A DNA stretch of 64,000 bases, taken from the IMG/VR virus record IMGVR_UViG_3300048589_001057, positions 1 through 64,000 of that record; one strand, given 5' to 3'. Of the stretch, positions 7,998-63,831 are shown one piece after another. Under the pieces are notes generated by a model, which saw only the letters and a program-made list of their open reading frames with translations, did no database searches and was not told the origin of the DNA. The position numbers were made by a program, and so were the translations under genes. Position 1 is the stretch's first letter. The number at the start of each line of letters is the position of its first letter. This stretch comes from a virus.

Positions 7998-9458
7998 ATG
8001 GCAATATCAGATTGGTTCAAAAGTAATCCCATAACCCCACTCAAACAGAGAGTTACTAGGCCCGATGTAAAGGTAGCTCCACCAGGTAGGGTGAGCCAAG
8101 TTGACTTGCCCAATATGATGGCTAGCTTTGAAAAAGAAGCGGCACAACTTGCCCCAGAGAAATACCTAAAACTAATACCCTTAATCCGTAAAAGCTACCC
8201 TTTTATCCAGAACTTGGCTTTGGCCATTCAGGACATGGTTCAGCTTACTAATACTGGCCATAAAGTTTATTTTGATAATTCTACTAAACCAGAATTGGTT
8301 AAAGAGATGAGAGATGAACTTATAGCTTCAGGTAAATCCTGGTTGGTTGGTGGGGCCGGAGTAGAAACTTTGGTTAATAAAATGATTACCCAGATATACA
8401 TTGGAGGGGCTATATCCACAGAATGGGTTCCATCTGAAAATCTCGATGGTATTGAAACAATTGGATTTATCAACCCAGAAACTGTAGTAGTAGAGGTTAA
8501 TAGTAAAGGTAAATTTACTTTTTTCCAACAACCCGCCAATTATTCACTAAACATCCTTAAGTCCCCCAATTTATTAATAGCTCTTAATCCCTTAACCTAT
8601 AAGTATATTGGTATGTCTGGGGATACAGATGATCCAAGGGGTATCCCACCACTGGTATCAGCCCTAGAGGATTTAGGTATCCAAAGGGATATGATGAAAA
8701 ACATTAAATTCATAGTTGAACAACTCGGTATTTTAGGTTTTATTGAGTTGCTAATGGAAAAACCCCCTCAAAACAGAGATGAGAATCCATCTACCTATAA
8801 GAAAAGATTGGAAAACCTATTGATAGAGGCTAAAACTAATCTACTTAAGGGAACTAAAGAAGGTATGTTAGTTGGTTATGATGGGGATCATGAATTTGAA
8901 TTTCATTCTACAACTAACAATATTTCTGGGCTGGATAAAATCTATGCCCTTAACCAAAAGATGGTGGCCAATGGCTTAAAGTATTCCGGTAGCTTCATGG
9001 GTACTACAGAGTCCACCGATACAAATATAAGCATCATCTTCACCAAGATGTTATCTCAATTACATAATGTCCAACTATTCTTACAGGAGGCCTTATCATT
9101 TGGGTATACTTTACATCTTCGGTTAAAGGGGTATGAATTTAAAAACTTAACAGTTGAATTTAATCCATCTACTATTTCTGATGACCTTAAATTACAACAG
9201 GCCACAGAAATAAAGATCCGTAACCAACGGATACTTTATGCCGATGGTATAATCAGTTTACAAACGTATGCCGATAATCTGAACTACGAAAGACCCGACC
9301 AAGCTGAACCCAGAGCTCCAATAGACCCAGATGGGACAATAGCTAAGGAGAAATCCAGGCAAGAAAGGGAAAAGAAAAAGGATGACTCTGACCGTAGAGT
9401 TAGGGATAAAAATAACCCCCAACCCAAGAGAAGAGATAACGAATCAAAAACACCATAA
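7998..9458 (+). CDS. Portal protein
   Basis: The 486-residue protein directly follows terminase, the standard portal position. It has an extended N-terminus, then an alpha/beta wing region (SYPFIQNLALAIQDMV), a long helical stem/clip region around residues 225-290, and a very hydrophilic C-terminal tail (residues 440-486, rich in Asp, Arg, Lys and Pro). These features are typical of portals of the SPP1/T4 gp20 group. The portal dodecamer forms the DNA channel at one capsid vertex and docks TerL. There is no sequence motif that proves the family; position and architecture support the call. Confidence 0.8.
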   Translation: MAISDWFKSNPITPLKQRVTRPDVKVAPPGRVSQVDLPNMMASFEKEAAQLAPEKYLKLIPLIRKSYPFIQNLALAIQDMVQLTNTGHKVYFDNSTKPELVKEMRDELIASGKSWLVGGAGVETLVNKMITQIYIGGAISTEWVPSENLDGIETIGFINPETVVVEVNSKGKFTFFQQPANYSLNILKSPNLLIALNPLTYKYIGMSGDTDDPRGIPPLVSALEDLGIQRDMMKNIKFIVEQLGILGFIELLMEKPPQNRDENPSTYKKRLENLLIEAKTNLLKGTKEGMLVGYDGDHEFEFHSTTNNISGLDKIYALNQKMVANGLKYSGSFMGTTESTDTNISIIFTKMLSQLHNVQLFLQEALSFGYTLHLRLKGYEFKNLTVEFNPSTISDDLKLQQATEIKIRNQRILYADGIISLQTYADNLNYERPDQAEPRAPIDPDGTIAKEKSRQEREKKKDDSDRRVRDKNNPQPKRRDNESKTP

Positions 9459-11996: not shown

Positions 11997-14900
11997 ATGC
12001 CTAAAATATTTGCTTTATACATTCTACTCCTAGTTTCCCCCTTACTGGGTTGGTCTCAAGTGGCTTTAACCCGTACACCCGGAGATTATCAAGTAACTCG
12101 GGGGCTAAAGATTGGGAATTCCACTTGGGTTACTCCGGGCCTTATAAAATACACCAGTAATACTTGGTGGGGGTATAATGGCTCATCCTGGGTTGATCTT
12201 GGTAATATCACACCCCAAACTCTAACCCTAAGTAATGACACCATTTATCTTACTAATGGGGGATTTGTTGTATTACCCGAGAGCTCAAATTTTGATGGCC
12301 AATACAGTAGTTTATCGGGGGCTCCAACAAATGTAAGCTATTTTATTAATGACGCCGGATACCTTACCGAGGATACCGCTTTAAGCGAAGCTCAGGTAGA
12401 TTACTATGTATCTAATAATGGTTTTGTAACTGGTACCCCATGGTTATCTGAAGGTTTTATAACTGATGGGAATATCGGTTGGGATAATTCTTATGGTTTT
12501 ATAGTATCAGAAGTTGATGGGAGTGTTACTAATGAGATACAAGAACTCAGTTTAGAGGGGGATACAATTTCCCTAACTAATAGCCCAAGTATTGGAATCC
12601 CTATATCTAATTGGAATGATGCTTACTACCGAAGTAGGTATTTAGATTATGTACTAGATAGTACCATTATTCAAGGTACACCAGGATCATCCGGGCTAGG
12701 GATAGATAGTACTTACTATACTTTACCAACTTATTCTGGTACCACATATTATATTAATCCCACTCCTGGTACTCCCGCTGGGAGTGGTAGTTTTGAAAGC
12801 CCATATAACTCTTGGGCTGGGGTAACTTTTACTGAAGGTTGTACTTATCTACAATTGAGAGGTACAACCTATAACTCTGCTGGCTCTATAACCCCCGGGG
12901 CTTCAGGAGTTACTGTTGGTATAAAGATAGGGGCTTATGGGGATAGCACATTAGCTAAGCCTAAAATCATAGTCTCCAATACAGACCCAGTAATTAGGTT
13001 ATCCGGAGATAATATTTTTCTGGTTAAAGATTTAGAAATACAAGCTTCTAGGTATGGCTTAGGCATACGTCATGATGGCCCTGGAGAAGTTTGGGTTTAT
13101 AACTGTGATATACATGGTGGAACTCATAATTACTGGAAATATGGCCCAACCACATCCCAAGGTACTGTAAAATTACTATACTCCTCATTTCATGATTCCT
13201 GGACTGATAATATATATGGGGATGATATTGAAGAAATAGAAATAGGCCATTGTAACTTCTATGATTGTAACATGGCTTATTTTACTTATCCCGGTGATGA
13301 CGGTTCTTCAGCAGCTCCTGGGGATAACATACAATTAGCTACTGCCTATGGACCATTAACTTTTCATATTCATCATTCTGTAATAGATCACAGTTCTACT
13401 GGGCATAAATTTTGTTTCATAGCTTGGAATGGGTACACTTATGTTGATACCGCTTGGAATGCTATGAATGGTTTAGTAACAGATAATTTAATCATAGGTT
13501 CACGTAGCCAAGGCTTTCTAGGATCCAATGGCCTTGTATATCTAGGGGATATGCAGGCTAAAGATACAGTGATATTCGAAAGGAATATATTTACTGATGG
13601 TAGTGCCGCAGTATATGCAGAATCTTCTAACATACGCCTATCCTATAACCTCATCCACAATGTTAGTACAGGGGTGGTTTTATCCCAAGCCAGAGCTGCT
13701 CTAGTATTACATAATAATACTTTAGCTAATTACTCAAGCGCAGGGGTGGGAGCAATCTCTAGCACATCTGTAATTAGCCGTAATAACGCCTTTTCTTCTG
13801 GGGGAGCATATGCATATAATCCCAATGCTACTTATGACAGTGACTATAATTACTTTCAGGGTTACGTGTCAAGTGGGAGCACAACATTGGCATCATGGCA
13901 GGGGTCTAGTACCAATGATGATAACTCAGATACAGGGGACCCATTATTCAAAGGCGTAGACAGTGCGGATTATAGACCTAATACTGGTTCCCCCCTACTT
14001 GATAATGGGGTTCCTCTTGGGTATAGCTATGACTTAAGTAGAGATGCTATTACAAATCCCCCAAGTATTGGGGCTTACCAAAATACAGTAGCCCCACCTT
14101 CCGGGGAGTATATTCCTGGTACGCCAGATGAAATCTCAGTTGATTCAGCTTTATTAGTGGGTAATATTAAAGTTATCTTAGGGGATTACACCGGTGGGAA
14201 TTATGCTGAATTTAGTGATGGTAATTTACTATTCCATGGTGATGCTGATTTACAATTAGATTGGCGTAATACCCCCTTAGCTAGGGGAGAAACAGGGGAA
14301 ATCCAATTTAATGAAGTGGGGTTATTATCTACCGACAGCTTATTTCACTATGAACGGTCATCAAAGGTATTATCTGTACCATCATTACAGACCACCTCTA
14401 TCAAATTTGGGGATAACTCTATTATGACATCAGCTTCTACTGGTAGTGGCTCTGGTAATTTTCTAGTATCTACCATTCAACCTGGAGATACTCTACCCAT
14501 GCCCCCTCCAGATATTATTTATATGCCAGTAGACACTATCACGGATGATACTCAAGTAGATGTAACTATTCCAATGGGCTATGCCTTAACTTATGTTTAT
14601 TGGGATAATCTAACCACAGTATCAGAGATTAATGTCATAATAGGTGGTGGAGCAGATAACATACATGGGGGAATACTTACCCCAGCTAAGACCATACAAC
14701 CCATAACTGCTCCAAGTATAATGGCCACAGAAGTGAGCTTGGGTATTACAGGTAATGAGTCTCCTGGGATTATCCCAACTTTACGATTAGAAAAAACCCC
14801 ATTCTATACCTATGTTCCACCGGTACCCACTATACCTCCTTACCTAGATGGTAATACTAGTATGTGGATAGCCACTGATAGTACTGAATTTTATGACCTA

Positions 14901-15656
14901 ACCGATGACAATTACGTTAAGATACTTTTTGATAAGGCCAAAAGGAAGAACACCTCGGGGTCTGAAGTTTTACCCTTACCTTTAGATCTAACAGAGTCAC
15001 AATGGACTAAAACTGGTACTGTAACAGCCCATACGGCCAATACCTTTACCACGAGTAATCCTGGTGGGGCTTATAGGTTATTAACTATGCCCATGAGAGC
15101 TGTAATGAAAGCTAATATTACAGGTACTTCAACCAATACTCCTTTATCCATTTATAACAATAACAATGGGGTATCTGCCAATCTAATTGCAGAAGCCGGG
15201 GATGGTGATGCCTATTTCAGTTCTATTGGAAATTATTTCTACTTTAGGGTTAATTCCGCTGCTGATATTACCATTAGTAGTGCCACAGTAAAAAGGGTGG
15301 ATGGTAATCACTTATCCCATAGTACAACATCTATCAGACCAACTTTTGCGGATAATGCAGTAGAATTTAATGGTACTTCCCAATACCTTAAAACTGCCAC
15401 TGGTACTACTGTAACCTACCAACATGCTTTTATTATAGGTAGGAAGGGTTCTGGGGATTACCACCTATACACCTCCCTCACTGGCTTTGGGGAATTATCC
15501 TCTGGGGTATTAACATTGGGGGCTGATGGCGCTGCTACAACCTTCTATGATGTGGATGTAAAAGAATTGGTATTAAGAACAGATGATGACACCAGTATCA
15601 ACAATCAAATTAAGGCTTACTTAAAAGCAAAATATTCAGTAACAGAAGCACCATAA
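11997..15656 (+). CDS. Large beta-helix fibre / depolymerase-like protein with signal peptide
   Basis: The 1219-residue protein begins with a textbook signal peptide (MPKIFALYILLLVSPLLGWSQ). Around residues 255-700 it reads as a right-handed parallel beta helix. It opens with YYINPTPGT and GSFESPYNSWAG as in pectate-lyase-type proteins. Short strand repeats with Asn/His-rich turns follow (IEIGHCNFYDC, FHIHHSVIDHSS, ALVLHNNTLANYSS). It ends with DPLFKG and IGAYQ, the usual end of such domains. The N-terminal 250 residues and the C-terminal part (jelly-roll-like, residues 950-1219) are extra modules. Such proteins bind or cut polysaccharides. It is probably a fibre or capsule depolymerase; catalytic residues cannot be assigned. 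Confidence 0.7.
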   Translation: MPKIFALYILLLVSPLLGWSQVALTRTPGDYQVTRGLKIGNSTWVTPGLIKYTSNTWWGYNGSSWVDLGNITPQTLTLSNDTIYLTNGGFVVLPESSNFDGQYSSLSGAPTNVSYFINDAGYLTEDTALSEAQVDYYVSNNGFVTGTPWLSEGFITDGNIGWDNSYGFIVSEVDGSVTNEIQELSLEGDTISLTNSPSIGIPISNWNDAYYRSRYLDYVLDSTIIQGTPGSSGLGIDSTYYTLPTYSGTTYYINPTPGTPAGSGSFESPYNSWAGVTFTEGCTYLQLRGTTYNSAGSITPGASGVTVGIKIGAYGDSTLAKPKIIVSNTDPVIRLSGDNIFLVKDLEIQASRYGLGIRHDGPGEVWVYNCDIHGGTHNYWKYGPTTSQGTVKLLYSSFHDSWTDNIYGDDIEEIEIGHCNFYDCNMAYFTYPGDDGSSAAPGDNIQLATAYGPLTFHIHHSVIDHSSTGHKFCFIAWNGYTYVDTAWNAMNGLVTDNLIIGSRSQGFLGSNGLVYLGDMQAKDTVIFERNIFTDGSAAVYAESSNIRLSYNLIHNVSTGVVLSQARAALVLHNNTLANYSSAGVGAISSTSVISRNNAFSSGGAYAYNPNATYDSDYNYFQGYVSSGSTTLASWQGSSTNDDNSDTGDPLFKGVDSADYRPNTGSPLLDNGVPLGYSYDLSRDAITNPPSIGAYQNTVAPPSGEYIPGTPDEISVDSALLVGNIKVILGDYTGGNYAEFSDGNLLFHGDADLQLDWRNTPLARGETGEIQFNEVGLLSTDSLFHYERSSKVLSVPSLQTTSIKFGDNSIMTSASTGSGSGNFLVSTIQPGDTLPMPPPDIIYMPVDTITDDTQVDVTIPMGYALTYVYWDNLTTVSEINVIIGGGADNIHGGILTPAKTIQPITAPSIMATEVSLGITGNESPGIIPTLRLEKTPFYTYVPPVPTIPPYLDGNTSMWIATDSTEFYDLTDDNYVKILFDKAKRKNTSGSEVLPLPLDLTESQWTKTGTVTAHTANTFTTSNPGGAYRLLTMPMRAVMKANITGTSTNTPLSIYNNNNGVSANLIAEAGDGDAYFSSIGNYFYFRVNSAADITISSATVKRVDGNHLSHSTTSIRPTFADNAVEFNGTSQYLKTATGTTVTYQHAFIIGRKGSGDYHLYTSLTGFGELSSGVLTLGADGAATTFYDVDVKELVLRTDDDTSINNQIKAYLKAKYSVTEAP

Positions 15657-15942: not shown

Positions 15943-17259
15943 ATGGGAACTATAGGATTAGGTATAAGAGTTGGAAAGGTTCACATTGGCTCAAATGTGA
16001 ACCAATGGTGGTATGGCATTGAATTTGACGAAACAGCAGCAGCAAGCACCATGACACGCATCGCAAGCAGTGAAGATGCAATGTCTTTACATGCAAGTTT
16101 ACCTATACAATCAAGGCAAAGAAGATGTATACTAAGCAATGCAGGAATAGTACAATATTACTTAGATAATAATGATAGCACTAAGAAAGCAGATGGTAGT
16201 GCAGCAGCATTAGATGGTTCGGCAGGTCATGTCATGGTTGAGATACCTCAATTTTATTATAAAATCGAGCGATCAGGAAATATAGCAAGAATGAAAATCA
16301 GTGATTATAACTTACCTGATTTTACATTTAGTCCTAAAATGTACCTGGGCGCTTTCGAGGGGGCAGTTAAGCGCTCAACATCTCAGCTCATGAGCGTAAT
16401 TAACGCAACTGCTGACTTTCGGGGCGGCAATAACAACGCCTCTTGGGATGCTCAGCCCAACAGCCTGCTTGGCAAACCAGCCACTGCAATCAGCCTTACA
16501 AACTTTCGCGCATTTGCCCACAATAACGGGTCAAAATGGTCTGCAAGGTCATACATGTCTCGCGCAAAGATGAACATGCTCTATATGGTTGAGTATGCAA
16601 ACAGGCACGTTCAGGCGGCTTACAATGAGGCTTTGACAGCACAGGGGTATAAGCAAGGCGGGCTTGGAGACGGCGTTTCAAACGTTAACGGTACAAACTG
16701 GGGTACCTTTTCAGGCTACTATCCGTTTGTTCCATGCGGCAGAACCACTGCGCTAGGCAATAAGTCAGGCTTTGTTAACTACGTAGTTGCAGGATTCACC
16801 GGTGGTGATATTACCGTCCCGGTGCCAACATACCGCGGAGTTGAGCACCCTTATGGGCACATTTGGGAATGGGAGGACGGAATACTATATAACATTCAGG
16901 CTAATGATGCAGGCGGGCAATCTCAGGTATTTATATGTGATAACCCCGCAAATTATGCCGATGTACTCACAAACTACAGGCAGGTTGGCTTGCTCCCACG
17001 AAATGAAGGTTACATAACCAGGTGTCTGCTTGATGAGGGGCTTACAATTCCAACTGAGGCGACCGGAGGCAGCTCAACAACGCGCTACTCGGATTATTTC
17101 TATACATCAATACCCGGCTCTGGTAGTGCTATTAGAGGGTCTCTGGTGTCTGCGAATGCGAGTGCTGGCGCGGATGCGGGCCTCTTTTGCCTGAATACGC
17201 TTCACGTTCCGGCGAAGACGAATGCGACCTTCGGGTCTCGGCCTTGCTTCATTCCGTAG
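15943..17259 (+). CDS. DGR target protein (C-type-lectin-like variable receptor-binding protein)
   Basis: The 438-residue protein resembles the diversified proteins of gut Bacteroidales DGRs that I recall. Conserved blocks include WWYGIEFD, LPIQS, a VEIPQFYYK segment, FRGGNNNASWD, a GGLG-x-GV motif, GYYPFVPCG and GHIWEWEDG. The C-terminal lectin fold has GGSSTTRYSDYF before the variable segment. Residues 398-435 are encoded by the VR. Relative to the TR, 12 residues differ: 400, 407, 408, 411, 416, 420, 421, 425, 429, 430, 433 and 435. The role is probably ligand binding at a fibre tip. Base and codon use after about 16000 are richer in GCG/CGC than the neighbours, suggesting recent acquisition. 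It follows the 93-residue gene by one base. Confidence 0.9.
   Translation: MGTIGLGIRVGKVHIGSNVNQWWYGIEFDETAAASTMTRIASSEDAMSLHASLPIQSRQRRCILSNAGIVQYYLDNNDSTKKADGSAAALDGSAGHVMVEIPQFYYKIERSGNIARMKISDYNLPDFTFSPKMYLGAFEGAVKRSTSQLMSVINATADFRGGNNNASWDAQPNSLLGKPATAISLTNFRAFAHNNGSKWSARSYMSRAKMNMLYMVEYANRHVQAAYNEALTAQGYKQGGLGDGVSNVNGTNWGTFSGYYPFVPCGRTTALGNKSGFVNYVVAGFTGGDITVPVPTYRGVEHPYGHIWEWEDGILYNIQANDAGGQSQVFICDNPANYADVLTNYRQVGLLPRNEGYITRCLLDEGLTIPTEATGGSSTTRYSDYFYTSIPGSGSAIRGSLVSANASAGADAGLFCLNTLHVPAKTNATFGSRPCFIP
17135..17249 (+). repeat. DGR variable repeat (VR)
   Basis: This is the 115-bp 3' end of the target gene. It aligns without gaps to 17336-17450, with 100 of 115 bases identical. Fourteen of the 15 differences fall where the template has A (template positions 17342, 17363, 17365, 17366, 17374, 17390, 17401, 17402, 17404, 17429, 17431, 17441, 17445, 17446). 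The only other difference is T to G at template 17418. Identity ends abruptly at both edges. Confidence 0.95.
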
Positions 17260-17335
17260 AACGAGGCGCGATCGCCGAAGGCCGAAAAACGGAGCACGGG
17301 GCGATTTTAGTTCTTTGATTAAGGTTGTAGTTGGT

Positions 17336-17450
17336 GAGGGTATCTGGTGTCTGCGAATGCGAATAATGGCGCGAATGCGGGCCTCTTTTACCTGAATACG
17401 AATAACGTTCCGGCGAATACGAATGCGAACATCGGGTCTCAGCCAAGCTT
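17336..17450 (+). repeat. DGR template repeat (TR)
   Basis: This is the non-coding template copy, 86 bp after the VR ends. Read in the VR frame it is rich in AAT/AAC and TAT/TAC codons (Asn, Tyr), the usual design that lets adenine mutagenesis sample many residues without stops. It has 29 adenines; 14 are substituted in the present VR. The reverse transcriptase start follows at 17564. Confidence 0.95.
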
Positions 17451-17563
17451 TTTAATTAATTGATTTCACCGACTAAACCCTGCCACTTGGCAAAAAATGA
17501 CAATTTTAAACCGCTTTATGGTAGTCACATGGCGAAGTATAGCGGCTTAACAGAAGCAAAACT

Positions 17564-17638
17564 ATGAAACGAATTTCACATCTGTACGAAAAATTATGCA
17601 GCATGGATAACCTCATCCTGGCTGATGCTAATGCTTAA
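17564..17638 (+). pseudogene. N-terminal remnant of DGR reverse transcriptase (24 codons)
   Basis: ATG 17564 to TAA 17636-17638 encodes 24 residues starting MKRISHLYEKLCSMDNL and ending ILADANA. This resembles the conserved N-terminus I recall for Bacteroidales DGR reverse transcriptases (M-K-R-x-x-x-L-Y-E-K-x-C-S-x-x-N-L-x-L-A-D). It sits exactly where the enzyme gene should be, after the TR. The reading stops after LADANA, and a membrane-protein gene starts at 17642. The catalytic palm, with its YMDD-type box, is absent here and from the rest of the window. Probable deletion remnant. Confidence 0.8.
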
Positions 17639-17641
17639 AAC

Positions 17642-18007
17642 ATGGAAACAACAAACTTATTAATATTACTTTTTATAGGGTTGTTTTTAGCCTTATGGAA
17701 CGCTTACGTAATTGAATGGGGACTATCTACTAATTTAGTTTATCGTAGCAATATGAGTAAACTTTGGCATAGGATAGGTTTCCTTATTCGGGCTGCACTT
17801 GCTTGTTATGTTACGGCTTCATACGGATTGTTCTATGGATGGTTATCAGTAATAGTCCTTTGGCAGCTTTACGATGTGATAATCAATTTAGCACGTAAAA
17901 TGCCAGCCTTCTATGTTGACGAAAAGACCCGTAAAAGCAAGATGTCCACAGTAACGTGGATAGCCAAAGCAGGCTGGTTTTTAGGTGGATTAGCTTTCTT
18001 ATTTTAG
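17642..18007 (+). CDS. Multi-TM membrane protein, paralogue of 10936-11340
   Basis: The 121-residue protein has hydrophobic segments at about residues 5-25, 45-85 and 103-121. It shares NAYVIEWG, an M-x-K-x-W element and F-x-IR with the 10936-11340 product at matching spacing, so the two are paralogues. It begins three bases after the reverse-transcriptase remnant stops, which marks the right edge of the DGR. Function unknown; a phage-encoded membrane protein in a receptor-binding block could act in exclusion. Confidence 0.6.
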   Translation: METTNLLILLFIGLFLALWNAYVIEWGLSTNLVYRSNMSKLWHRIGFLIRAALACYVTASYGLFYGWLSVIVLWQLYDVIINLARKMPAFYVDEKTRKSKMSTVTWIAKAGWFLGGLAFLF

Positions 18008-52644: not shown

Positions 52645-54855
52645 ATGGCTAAGAAGTCAAAAAAGGGGGGTATTTTATCCCCCTTACAAATCCAGAAAAA
52701 ATACCCTGGTTCTGGTATAGCTACATCTATAGCCATACCATCCCTGGACACTCTTTGGATCCCCTCTCGGTGCTTACCCCTTAATTATGCCACTGGTGGG
52801 GGTATCCCCTACGGTAAAATCCTAGAAATCTATGGCCAGGAAAGCTCGGGTAAAACTCTAGCCGCTTTAGACTTTGGGTCGGTAGTTCAGGCTTTGGGTG
52901 GGGAGATTATGTACAATGATGCAGAGATGGCATTCACTATTGACTGGGCTATAAAAAATGGCCTAGACCCCAATAAAATACACCTTTACCCAGAAACTTC
53001 GGTGGAACTAATATCCGACTGGATAATGGATACAGCCATATCCATTAGGGCTAGGTTAGTAAAAAATGAGCCAATACTATTCATCCAAGATTCCATTGCC
53101 GCTTTAGATTGTATGGCCAATATCAATTCTTCCCAGACTGATTCCAAAGCTGAGATGGGTAATAGGGCTAAAGCTATCTATAAAATGGTAAGGATTAGGA
53201 ATCAAATGCTGGCTGAGATGGGAGTAACCTCAATTTTTATAAACCAGATAAGAAGTAATATCAAAGCCTCTACAAGCCGGTTCTCTGGGGTCGACCCCGA
53301 CTGCCTCCACTACAATACCCTAGTCCATCTTGTGGACGGTAGAACTTTACCCATTGGGGAAATCGTAAGGGGGAAAATTGCCGGTGAGGTTTGGAGTTAT
53401 AATGAAACTACTTTATCCGTAGAACCCAAGCCTATCATCGGCTGGGTGGAAAAAGAGAAGCTTGAACCCGGAGAAAAATGGCTATCCATCGTAACCAATG
53501 GGCCTGGAAGTAAAGGGGGGAAATTTGGTATTGTCTGTACGGAAAAACACGGTATATTCACTGCTTTTAAGGGTTGGGTTAATGCCCGAGATTTAAAGGT
53601 TGGGGATATGGTATTAACCTATGCCCCCTATAAAATCAATGGTACCCTCAGGGACTTCTTAGAGGGCTCGGCGATAGGGGATTCTTCCATTAGAGTAAGG
53701 GATACCAGTACGGCTAGGTATAGGCTACAAGATTCAGAACAGCCAGAATACCTACAGTGGAAGTTGAATTTACTATCCGAACATTACTCTTTTAAAGCCG
53801 AATACGATAGTCAATTGAATATCCGGTTTACCACTGATTACTCTACGGAGTGGGCTATCTTCGGGGCAAAATTCCCTAATCGTAATCCCTCAGCTTTATT
53901 CTGTAATACCCCTAATGCCTTAACCATGGCAGTTTGGTATATGGATGATGGACATCTATCCGACTCAGGGATTATAAGCATAGCCATATCCCCAAAGAGA
54001 GTTGACTTGCAGGAATTGGCGGAATGGTTGTCGGGGTATGGGTATATATGTAAACCCTATAAAAAGGGGATAAGGTTTAGTAATGACGGGGGTAAAAGAT
54101 TACACCGGCTTATTGCTAAATACGTCCCTGAATGCATGGCCCATAAACTTAAACCCGAATATCAGGGAATGCATGAGCCATTTGGGTTAACCTGCCACCC
54201 AGAAATTACCCCCCTACCCACTAAAGTGGTAAGTATCAATGGGGCTGGGGAAAGGCATTACCGGAAACTCCATAAGTACGACCTTACTATCCAAGATAAC
54301 CATAGCTTCTTCGCTGGCAGTGTTGGCCCAGGTTTCCTGGTACATAACACTACCCCTGGGGGTCAAGCCATGAAGTTTTTTGCCAGTATTAGGTTGGGTA
54401 TATATGCTGGTAGACAAATTAAGGAGAAGGTAGGGGGTTATGAAGACCGAGTGGGATCTGAAACTTCAGTAAGGGTTAAGAAGAATAAGGTAGCTCCCCC
54501 AAAGCCAACTTTTAAAGCCAAGATGTATTTTAATCCTGACTATGAGGCTAAGCCTCTTGGATTTGACAGGTATTTTGGATTAGGGGAATTACTTATTCGA
54601 ACTAATGTACTAAGCCGTAAGCCAAATAGCAGTATGATATACCTGGATGGTACTTTGATTGCCAGAGGTGAAAAGAGCTTAGATTTAAAACTGGCTAAAG
54701 ATGCTAAATTACGTAGAGCTTTGATAAAGGCTTCATCGATTAATACCGTATCCAAAACACGGAATAAACTCAATGGGTTATCCCATAATTTATACCCAGT
54801 AAAAACCAAGAAGTTCATCTCCCAATTAAATGATGAGGAAAATGAAGATGAGTAA
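52645..54855 (+). CDS. recA: RecA-family recombinase interrupted by an intein
   Basis: The 736-residue precursor contains a RecA of 387 residues when the intein is removed. The N-extein (1-219) has IYGQESSGKTLAALD (Walker A), LFIQDSIAALD (Walker B) and SIFINQIRS (L1). The C-extein (569-736) starts TTPGGQAMKFFASIRLGI, the RecA L2-adjacent motif. The insertion is at residue 220, directly before this Thr, a site in the DNA-binding region where inteins commonly occur. RecA pairs homologous strands for repair and recombination-dependent replication. The basic, acidic-ended C-terminus (QLNDEENEDE) is typical. Confidence 0.9.
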   Translation: MAKKSKKGGILSPLQIQKKYPGSGIATSIAIPSLDTLWIPSRCLPLNYATGGGIPYGKILEIYGQESSGKTLAALDFGSVVQALGGEIMYNDAEMAFTIDWAIKNGLDPNKIHLYPETSVELISDWIMDTAISIRARLVKNEPILFIQDSIAALDCMANINSSQTDSKAEMGNRAKAIYKMVRIRNQMLAEMGVTSIFINQIRSNIKASTSRFSGVDPDCLHYNTLVHLVDGRTLPIGEIVRGKIAGEVWSYNETTLSVEPKPIIGWVEKEKLEPGEKWLSIVTNGPGSKGGKFGIVCTEKHGIFTAFKGWVNARDLKVGDMVLTYAPYKINGTLRDFLEGSAIGDSSIRVRDTSTARYRLQDSEQPEYLQWKLNLLSEHYSFKAEYDSQLNIRFTTDYSTEWAIFGAKFPNRNPSALFCNTPNALTMAVWYMDDGHLSDSGIISIAISPKRVDLQELAEWLSGYGYICKPYKKGIRFSNDGGKRLHRLIAKYVPECMAHKLKPEYQGMHEPFGLTCHPEITPLPTKVVSINGAGERHYRKLHKYDLTIQDNHSFFAGSVGPGFLVHNTTPGGQAMKFFASIRLGIYAGRQIKEKVGGYEDRVGSETSVRVKKNKVAPPKPTFKAKMYFNPDYEAKPLGFDRYFGLGELLIRTNVLSRKPNSSMIYLDGTLIARGEKSLDLKLAKDAKLRRALIKASSINTVSKTRNKLNGLSHNLYPVKTKKFISQLNDEENEDE
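53302..54348 (+). mobile_element. Intein with LAGLIDADG-type homing endonuclease (in RecA)
   Basis: Residues 220-568 of the recombinase precursor form the intein. It starts with Cys220 and block A (CLHYNTLVHLVDGRTLPIGE). Block B has the T-x-x-H element (CTEKHGIFTA). Endonuclease motifs are degenerate LAGLIDADG helices LEGSAIGDSSIR and VWYMDDGHLSDSG. The C-terminal blocks are YDLTIQDNHSFFAGS and FLVHN. The last residues His-Asn and the following extein Thr complete a standard splicing site. All splicing residues look present, so it is probably active. The element moves by homing into intein-free recA alleles. Confidence 0.9.
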
Positions 54856-62694: not shown

Positions 62695-63170
62695 TGGCTA
62701 AAGCTACTATAAAGATCAACCTAAAACAATGGTACTTAGTGTACCTAAAACACCCAAAGGATCCCCAAGCTTTTAGAAAATCCTTTTTATTCTATGAATT
62801 AGCTGAGGAGGCAGTACGAAGACACTTTCCTCATTTGGCATTCGTAGAAATAGTGTCTGGGAAAACCCTCTTGGATGAGGGCATAAGGGTATTACCTTCA
62901 GCCTCTAATATCTGGGGAATCAGTATTACTAAATATGATTTTGGGGAAAACCTAACCCGTCGCCAAAAGGGCAGTTTAAGGCTTAAGTACCGTAGGCAAA
63001 GACGTAGGAATAAGATAAGAGAGGTATTTGATGGCCCTTTAATATTAAGTTGGAGGGAAGTGGTAAGTAGAGAGCTTGGAAAACCCATATCAGATATCCC
63101 AAAGAAGGAACTGGAAAGAATATTAAAAAGAAAAACTAAGATTTTTTACCGGGAGTTTGATGACCTCTAG
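62694..63170 (+). CDS. Hypothetical basic protein (158 aa)
   Basis: The basic 158-residue protein has an N-terminal alpha/beta segment (KQWYLVYLKHPKDPQAFRKS) and a strongly arginine/lysine-rich middle (LTRRQKGSLRLKYRRQRRRN, about residues 83-102), which is a likely nucleic-acid-binding patch. The C-terminal helix (ELERILKRKTKIFYREFDDL) is charged. No family recognised. It is the last gene before the leader motif and the acidic protein. Confidence 0.5.
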   Translation: MAKATIKINLKQWYLVYLKHPKDPQAFRKSFLFYELAEEAVRRHFPHLAFVEIVSGKTLLDEGIRVLPSASNIWGISITKYDFGENLTRRQKGSLRLKYRRQRRRNKIREVFDGPLILSWREVVSRELGKPISDIPKKELERILKRKTKIFYREFDDL

Positions 63171-63182
63171 AACACCCCTCAA

Positions 63183-63197
63183 ACTATTAATAATAAA
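63183..63197 (+). promoter_or_regulatory. Leader motif ACTATTAATAATAAA
   Basis: Exact copy of the 15-mer, 22 bases before the ATG at 63220 and 13 bases after the upstream stop. Confidence 0.55.
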
Positions 63198-63219
63198 TAA
63201 ACAACCTAAATTTAACACC

Positions 63220-63831
63220 ATGAACTTAACAAAAAAAACCATTGCCGAACAAGAAGACCTTAAAACAGGTTTTTTTAAATTAACTTTCACAGATGGCTCT
63301 TCCATCATTTGCCTCATAGCCTTGGCTGAAGAGGAGGAGGAAGAAGAGGAAGAAGTTCCGGCCAAAGCCAAAGCCAAAGCTCCTAAGGATGAGGATGAAG
63401 TCCCAGCCAAATCCAAAGCCAAAGCCAAAGCTCCTAAGGATGAGGATGAGGAAGAAGAGGAAGAAGAAGAGGATGAGGATGAGGATGAGGAAGAAGAGGA
63501 AGAAGAAGAGGATGAGGAAGAAGAGGAAGAAGAAGAGGAAGAAGAAGAGGATGAGGAGGATGAAGAAGAGGAAGAGGATGAAGAAGAAGAGGAGGAAGAA
63601 GAAGAGGAGGAAGAAGAAGAAGAGGAAGAAGAAGAAGAAGAGGATGAGGATATAACTTGGGATGATCTCAAAGGTATGGACTCTGATGAGCTCGAGGATA
63701 TCATTGATGAAGAAGATCTCTCAGTTGATCCCGAAGATTACGAGGATGATGAGGATGGCTTAAGGAAAGCTGTAGCTAAGGCTATGAAAATTGAGATTCC
63801 TGCCAAAAAGGCAAAAAAATCTAAAAAATAA
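63220..63831 (+). CDS. Glu/Asp-rich acidic protein with basic end (203 aa)
   Basis: The start is placed at ATG 63220, because the in-frame upstream ATG (63157) lies inside the previous gene and before the leader motif. The first 35 residues look like a small beta domain (IAEQEDLKTGFFKLTFTDGS). An Ala/Lys-Pro-like spacer repeat (KAKAKAPKDEDE) follows, and then a nearly uninterrupted Glu/Asp tract at about residues 70-145. The last 50 residues are acidic but structured (WDDLKGMDSDELEDIIDEED), and the end is basic (KKAKKSKK). Polyacidic proteins can mimic DNA or act as histone-like or chaperone proteins. The codon-level repeat of GAG/GAA/GAT is prone to slippage. Function unknown. Confidence 0.65.
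   Translation: MNLTKKTIAEQEDLKTGFFKLTFTDGSSIICLIALAEEEEEEEEEVPAKAKAKAPKDEDEVPAKSKAKAKAPKDEDEEEEEEEEDEDEDEEEEEEEEDEEEEEEEEEEEEDEEDEEEEEDEEEEEEEEEEEEEEEEEEEEEDEDITWDDLKGMDSDELEDIIDEEDLSVDPEDYEDDEDGLRKAVAKAMKIEIPAKKAKKSKK

Follow-up and report, generated by a model that had tools for sequence, protein, structure and literature searches.

A tailed-phage DGR with a 24-codon reverse transcriptase stub and a near-identical, enzyme-bearing counterpart in an apparent Bacteroidetes prophage

The analysed stretch of viral DNA (64,000 nucleotides, positions 1 to 64,000 of IMG/VR record IMGVR_UViG_3300048589_001057; hereafter, the window) carries a diversity-generating retroelement (DGR) that has kept its template RNA, its recognition RNA and its target site, the enzyme alone being missing. 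A near-identical cassette with an intact reverse transcriptase (RT) is found in a bacterial chromosome, and the virus may therefore borrow the enzyme of a host element. We give an even chance to the reading that the locus is a non-autonomous DGR of a tailed phage, diversified in trans by the RT of a host prophage.

The virus record is 80,518 bp long. Its two ends are perfect direct repeats of 127 bp, pointing to a closed circular assembly of 80,391 bp; thus, the record is very likely complete. It encodes terminase, portal, sheath, tape measure and baseplate proteins, as well as DnaB, DNA polymerase, a UvsX-like protein and ligase, while no tyrosine integrase was found in it. A LAGLIDADG homing-endonuclease domain (PHROG 11023), probably an intein, is located within the UvsX-like recombinase gene at 52645–54855, and the ORF at 63157–63831 contains a very long run of acidic (E/D) repeats. 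The relatives of the phage backbone that were found are one IMG/VR fragment and MT121964; the latter is without an RT, and the template and variable repeats (TR and VR) are absent from the 35 kb of it that were examined.

The target of the DGR is a 438-aa tail protein (PHROG 5302; E-value, 2.6 × 10−108) encoded on the plus strand at 15943–17259, and it shares 79–81% protein identity with the targets of RT-bearing DGRs. The 115-bp VR (17135–17249, plus strand) is 3'-terminal in this gene, and the segment comprising its 3' end, an IMH-like region, and the stop codon of the target gene (17229–17259, plus strand) is the same as in the closest relative, L018. The 115-bp TR, located on the same strand at 17336–17450, has one mismatch to the TR of L018. 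The TR and VR cores differ at 15 positions, 14 of which are adenines in the TR, where this base accounts for 29 of 115 positions (hypergeometric P = 2.8 × 10−9); with a single exception, the differences are thus confined to TR adenines, as in a DGR. The exception is a T-to-G change in the VR at 17217, opposite TR position 17418, which is T in every close relative. Apart from this change, the VR of the window differs from that of L018 only at TR-adenine positions. Genes with a 3' VR in DGRs typically code for receptor-binding or CLec-fold proteins; as for the fold of the present target, there was no PDB match at E ≤ 0.001, and the predicted model is too weak in the VR region, with pLDDT <50. 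Upstream of the target gene, a 1219-aa beta-helix tail protein is encoded at 11997–15656. In two IMG/VR loci, L001 and L004, the target proteins are fusions, and their upstream portion shares ~32% identity with residues 232–677 of the beta-helix protein; on this basis, the separate genes of the window correspond to one fused protein there.

The structured RNA of the TR–RT spacer is present as well. The spacer (17451–17563) is identical to that of the RT-bearing L018 at 113 of 113 positions, and 17476–17563 (plus strand) matches the RT-17 model (RF03020) over its full length (E-value, 3.8 × 10−5), with a score (36.4 bits) slightly below the Rfam gathering score of 40.4 bits. The match terminates one base before the ATG of the RT. 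RT-17 is found above threshold at the same place in the RT-intact locus L019, and also in L081. In Bordetella phage BPP-1, the TR–RT spacer folds, recruits the RT–Avd complex and primes cDNA synthesis (PMC12875486).

What remains of the enzyme is a 75-nt ORF at 17564–17638 (plus strand; 24 codons followed by TAA), the translation of which is MKRISHLYEKLCSMDNLILADANA*. The earlier note took this ORF for the 5' end of a DGR RT, and the comparison with L018 confirmed it: nucleotides 1–71 are the same as in the intact 331-aa RT (71/71), a protein that matches Pfam RVT_1 with 61.5 bits, and the two sequences diverge abruptly from 17635. The claim that no RT or palm domain is found elsewhere in the window holds for the entire 80.5-kb record, which gave no match to the RVT_1 HMM and, in a search with a close RT protein, only the stub (17564–17641). 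Hence, the error-prone RT of a DGR is reduced here to 24 codons and is not encoded anywhere else in the record. The gene immediately downstream (17642–18007, plus strand; 121 aa) had been described as coding for a membrane protein; its product does have a hydrophobic N-terminus, but no family match. With regard to an Avd/HRDC accessory protein, neither of the two ORFs that follow the RT in L018 had a Pfam match; the PF05635 search for Avd is uninformative, as its controls gave no match. For RNA constraint reaching into the 5' end of the RT gene, the numbers of fourfold sites are too small.

L018 is a DGR adjoining uvrC in the Bacteroidetes MAG X3_MetaBAT.13 (WSXX01000009.1) and belongs to an apparent prophage. 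The IMG/VR loci L001, L002 and L004 have this cassette too, likewise with the 331-aa RT intact. All four share with the window the target-gene family, the VR, the TR, the RT-17-type spacer and the start of the RT, and differ from it in having the complete enzyme instead of 24 codons. A donor-type prophage with an intact RT therefore exists, as had been supposed when a host or prophage DGR was suggested as the holder of the enzyme.

The similarity to these elements has abrupt ends. At its 5' end, the target gene is resident sequence (15943–16334, plus strand; 37.5% GC) with 51% DNA identity to L018, while the tract at 16335–17634 (plus strand) is of the Bacteroidetes-prophage type, is 83–90% identical to L001–L004 and L018, and has a G–C content of 49% versus 40% for the genome. 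Along this tract, the identity to L018 is 83% at 16335–16884, 94% at 16885–17091, 100% at 17092–17134 and 114/115 in the TR, and 404 of 406 bases (99.5%) are identical over 17229–17634, with the mismatches at 17335 and 17342. The stepwise increase suggests several exchanges or a mosaic donor. The target protein is ~60% identical to that of L018 over residues 21–140 and ~93% beyond, and its frame is unbroken across the 5' junction. The comparison thus shows recombination with a DGR of the Bacteroidetes-prophage type: a resident tail gene received, with its frame preserved, the last two-thirds of the target gene, the VR, the TR, the spacer and nucleotides 1–71 of the RT, but not the catalytic RT. 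Since both homology and frame continue upstream of 16335, recombination into a resident homologous gene is indicated rather than an assembly join. This continuity of frame and of protein homology at the 5' junction disfavours an assembly chimera, and a misassembly at the stub, which the earlier note had considered, is unlikely on the same grounds.

The loss of the RT is not restricted to the window. Searching with a profile of the target gene gave 80 viral loci, and, together with the loci found earlier, 71 hold a TR/VR pair. The RT is intact in 60 of these, deleted in three (L003, L073 and L081), present as fragmented frames in six and cut by contig ends in two. When loci found by RT queries or by TR similarity are left out, RT deletions, all independent, account for 3 of 57 related viral loci (~5%), and the description of a TR–VR cassette that borrows its RT as unusual therefore needs qualifying. 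In L003, which is close to L001, 883 bp of the RT are gone between 4-bp TGCA repeats, and no full RT was found elsewhere in the 35.6-kb contig. This deletion joins the RT start in frame to a downstream 180-aa gene (L003:9547–9583). In L073 (7545–7859) and L081 (7565–8036), the catalytic core of the RT is deleted. The TR, the VR and the spacer, of the RT-17 type in L073 and L081, are retained in all three loci, as in the window; however, these are internal or truncating deletions in fragmentary contigs, whereas the DGR of the window arose by recombination and lies in a record that is apparently complete. RT frames in pieces beside an intact TR/VR, representing frameshifts, stops or sequencing errors, are seen in L060/L061, L112, L116 and L012.

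Non-adenine TR/VR changes average 0.95 in the 60 RT-intact pairs, compared with none in the RT-deleted pairs and one in the window. Thus, no decay is visible in the four RT-less cases, and the T-to-G change of the window is ordinary; its interpretation as drift following the loss of the RT is rejected. The retention of the TR is circular, as the loci were picked by the presence of TR/VR. All four breakpoints fall 3' of the spacer, but this is no significant excess, as chance alone would, by a rough estimate, produce it in about one case out of two; for these reasons, selection for the RNA is not claimed. L001 and L002 have identical RT proteins and VRs (about 9117–9228) that differ at TR-adenine positions, as would be seen if the RT-bearing members were actively diversifying.

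If the phage locus is diversified in trans, its TR RNA would be made by read-through transcription on the strand of the tail gene. Where the host contains an L018-like prophage as well, the latter would supply the RT, which would recognise the identical spacer RNA; alternatively, the prophage RT might copy the prophage's own near-identical TR. The adenine-mutagenised cDNA would then rewrite the phage VR in trans, and in hosts without such a prophage the VR would be inherited unchanged. RNA recognition and target should be compatible, given that only two of 406 bases differ from L018 and none in the spacer and RT start; judging from the identical spacer, the RT of an L018-like element would be expected to accept the TR RNA of the phage, and whichever of the two TRs is copied, the cDNA would be expected to match the phage VR. 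A BPP-1 phage with avd, TR and brt deleted was complemented in trans from a plasmid (PMC3240598), and trans action within one genome has been inferred in Thiohalocapsa PB-PSB1 (PMC10907252). Comparison of two 20-kb pieces of the phage with 19 genomes of the L018 family gave no convincing match; the two weak ones (24 and 39 bp; E-values, 0.003–0.004) have flanks without CRISPR repeats. A broader proposal, that a phage without its own RT hypermutates its tail gene by means of a host prophage RT as a non-autonomous DGR parasite, and that RT-less cassettes (~5% of related viral TR/VR loci) represent a recurring strategy, is put forward tentatively.

The strongest alternative is plausible, at somewhat less than an even chance: the VR was diversified in an RT-bearing donor before the capture, one fixed receptor-binding variant has been kept, and the TR, the spacer and the stub are passengers that have not decayed so far. 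The VR differences can predate the capture, and the near-identity to L018 implies a recent transfer, so the absence of decay is expected under this explanation too. The TR has A at 17342, whereas the VR keeps the ancestral C; this TR-only change and the VR-only T-to-G change at 17217, both unshared, fit a frozen VR and are compatible with no complete rewriting of the VR since both arose. The RT deletions of L003, L073 and L081 likewise resemble ordinary decay. Nothing decisive speaks against the alternative; it is faced with a compatible RT in a Bacteroidetes genome and intact cis elements, to which the trans reading appeals.

It is improbable that RT-bearing versions of the phage exist in a mixed population and that the consensus represents either a variant with a deletion or a faulty assembly near 17635. 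In PB-PSB1, structural variants with intact RTs were present at two broken DGR loci (PMC10907252); here, however, what follows 17635 is not RT sequence but a phage ORF of low GC content in the same orientation, frame and protein homology both continue across the 5' junction, the two ends of the record join through the 127-bp repeat, and no RT-bearing relative was found among the few relatives of the backbone. A role of the stub itself, for example as a leader peptide or a translational coupler for the gene at 17642, is very improbable, since, although its stop codon lies 3 nt upstream of the next start codon, the stub equals the donor RT start nucleotide for nucleotide and is accounted for by descent.

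RT-truncated DGRs are already known, and the DiGReF survey (PMC3521204) describes DGRs that, like the window, have an inactivated RT and remaining TR/VR; the events given there are transposon insertions, nonsense mutations or frameshifts, and the passages on them identify no recombination donor. Thiohalocapsa PB-PSB1 (PMC10907252) and the partial DGRs of Nanoarchaeota, which were read as fossils or as remotely diversified (PMC4372165), resemble the window in that the locus has a target and its cis sites but lacks an RT; there, however, an RT is in the same genome, whereas the virus genome has none. The BPP-1 DGR shares with the window the VR–TR–spacer–RT order, adenine mutagenesis and a phage receptor-binding target, and it works with avd-TR-brt in trans (PMC3240598); unlike the window, it encodes both Avd and RT, and the RT and spacer families are different. 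A search of openly available journal literature found no published description of a complete phage with an RT-less TR–VR cassette for which a donor prophage had been identified.

As the donor, the junction and the matched RNA element can all be named, trans action between phage and prophage is directly testable. If the RT acts across genomes, a single host element could diversify receptor binding in several superinfecting phages, and such targets would escape DGR surveys that rely on the RT gene.
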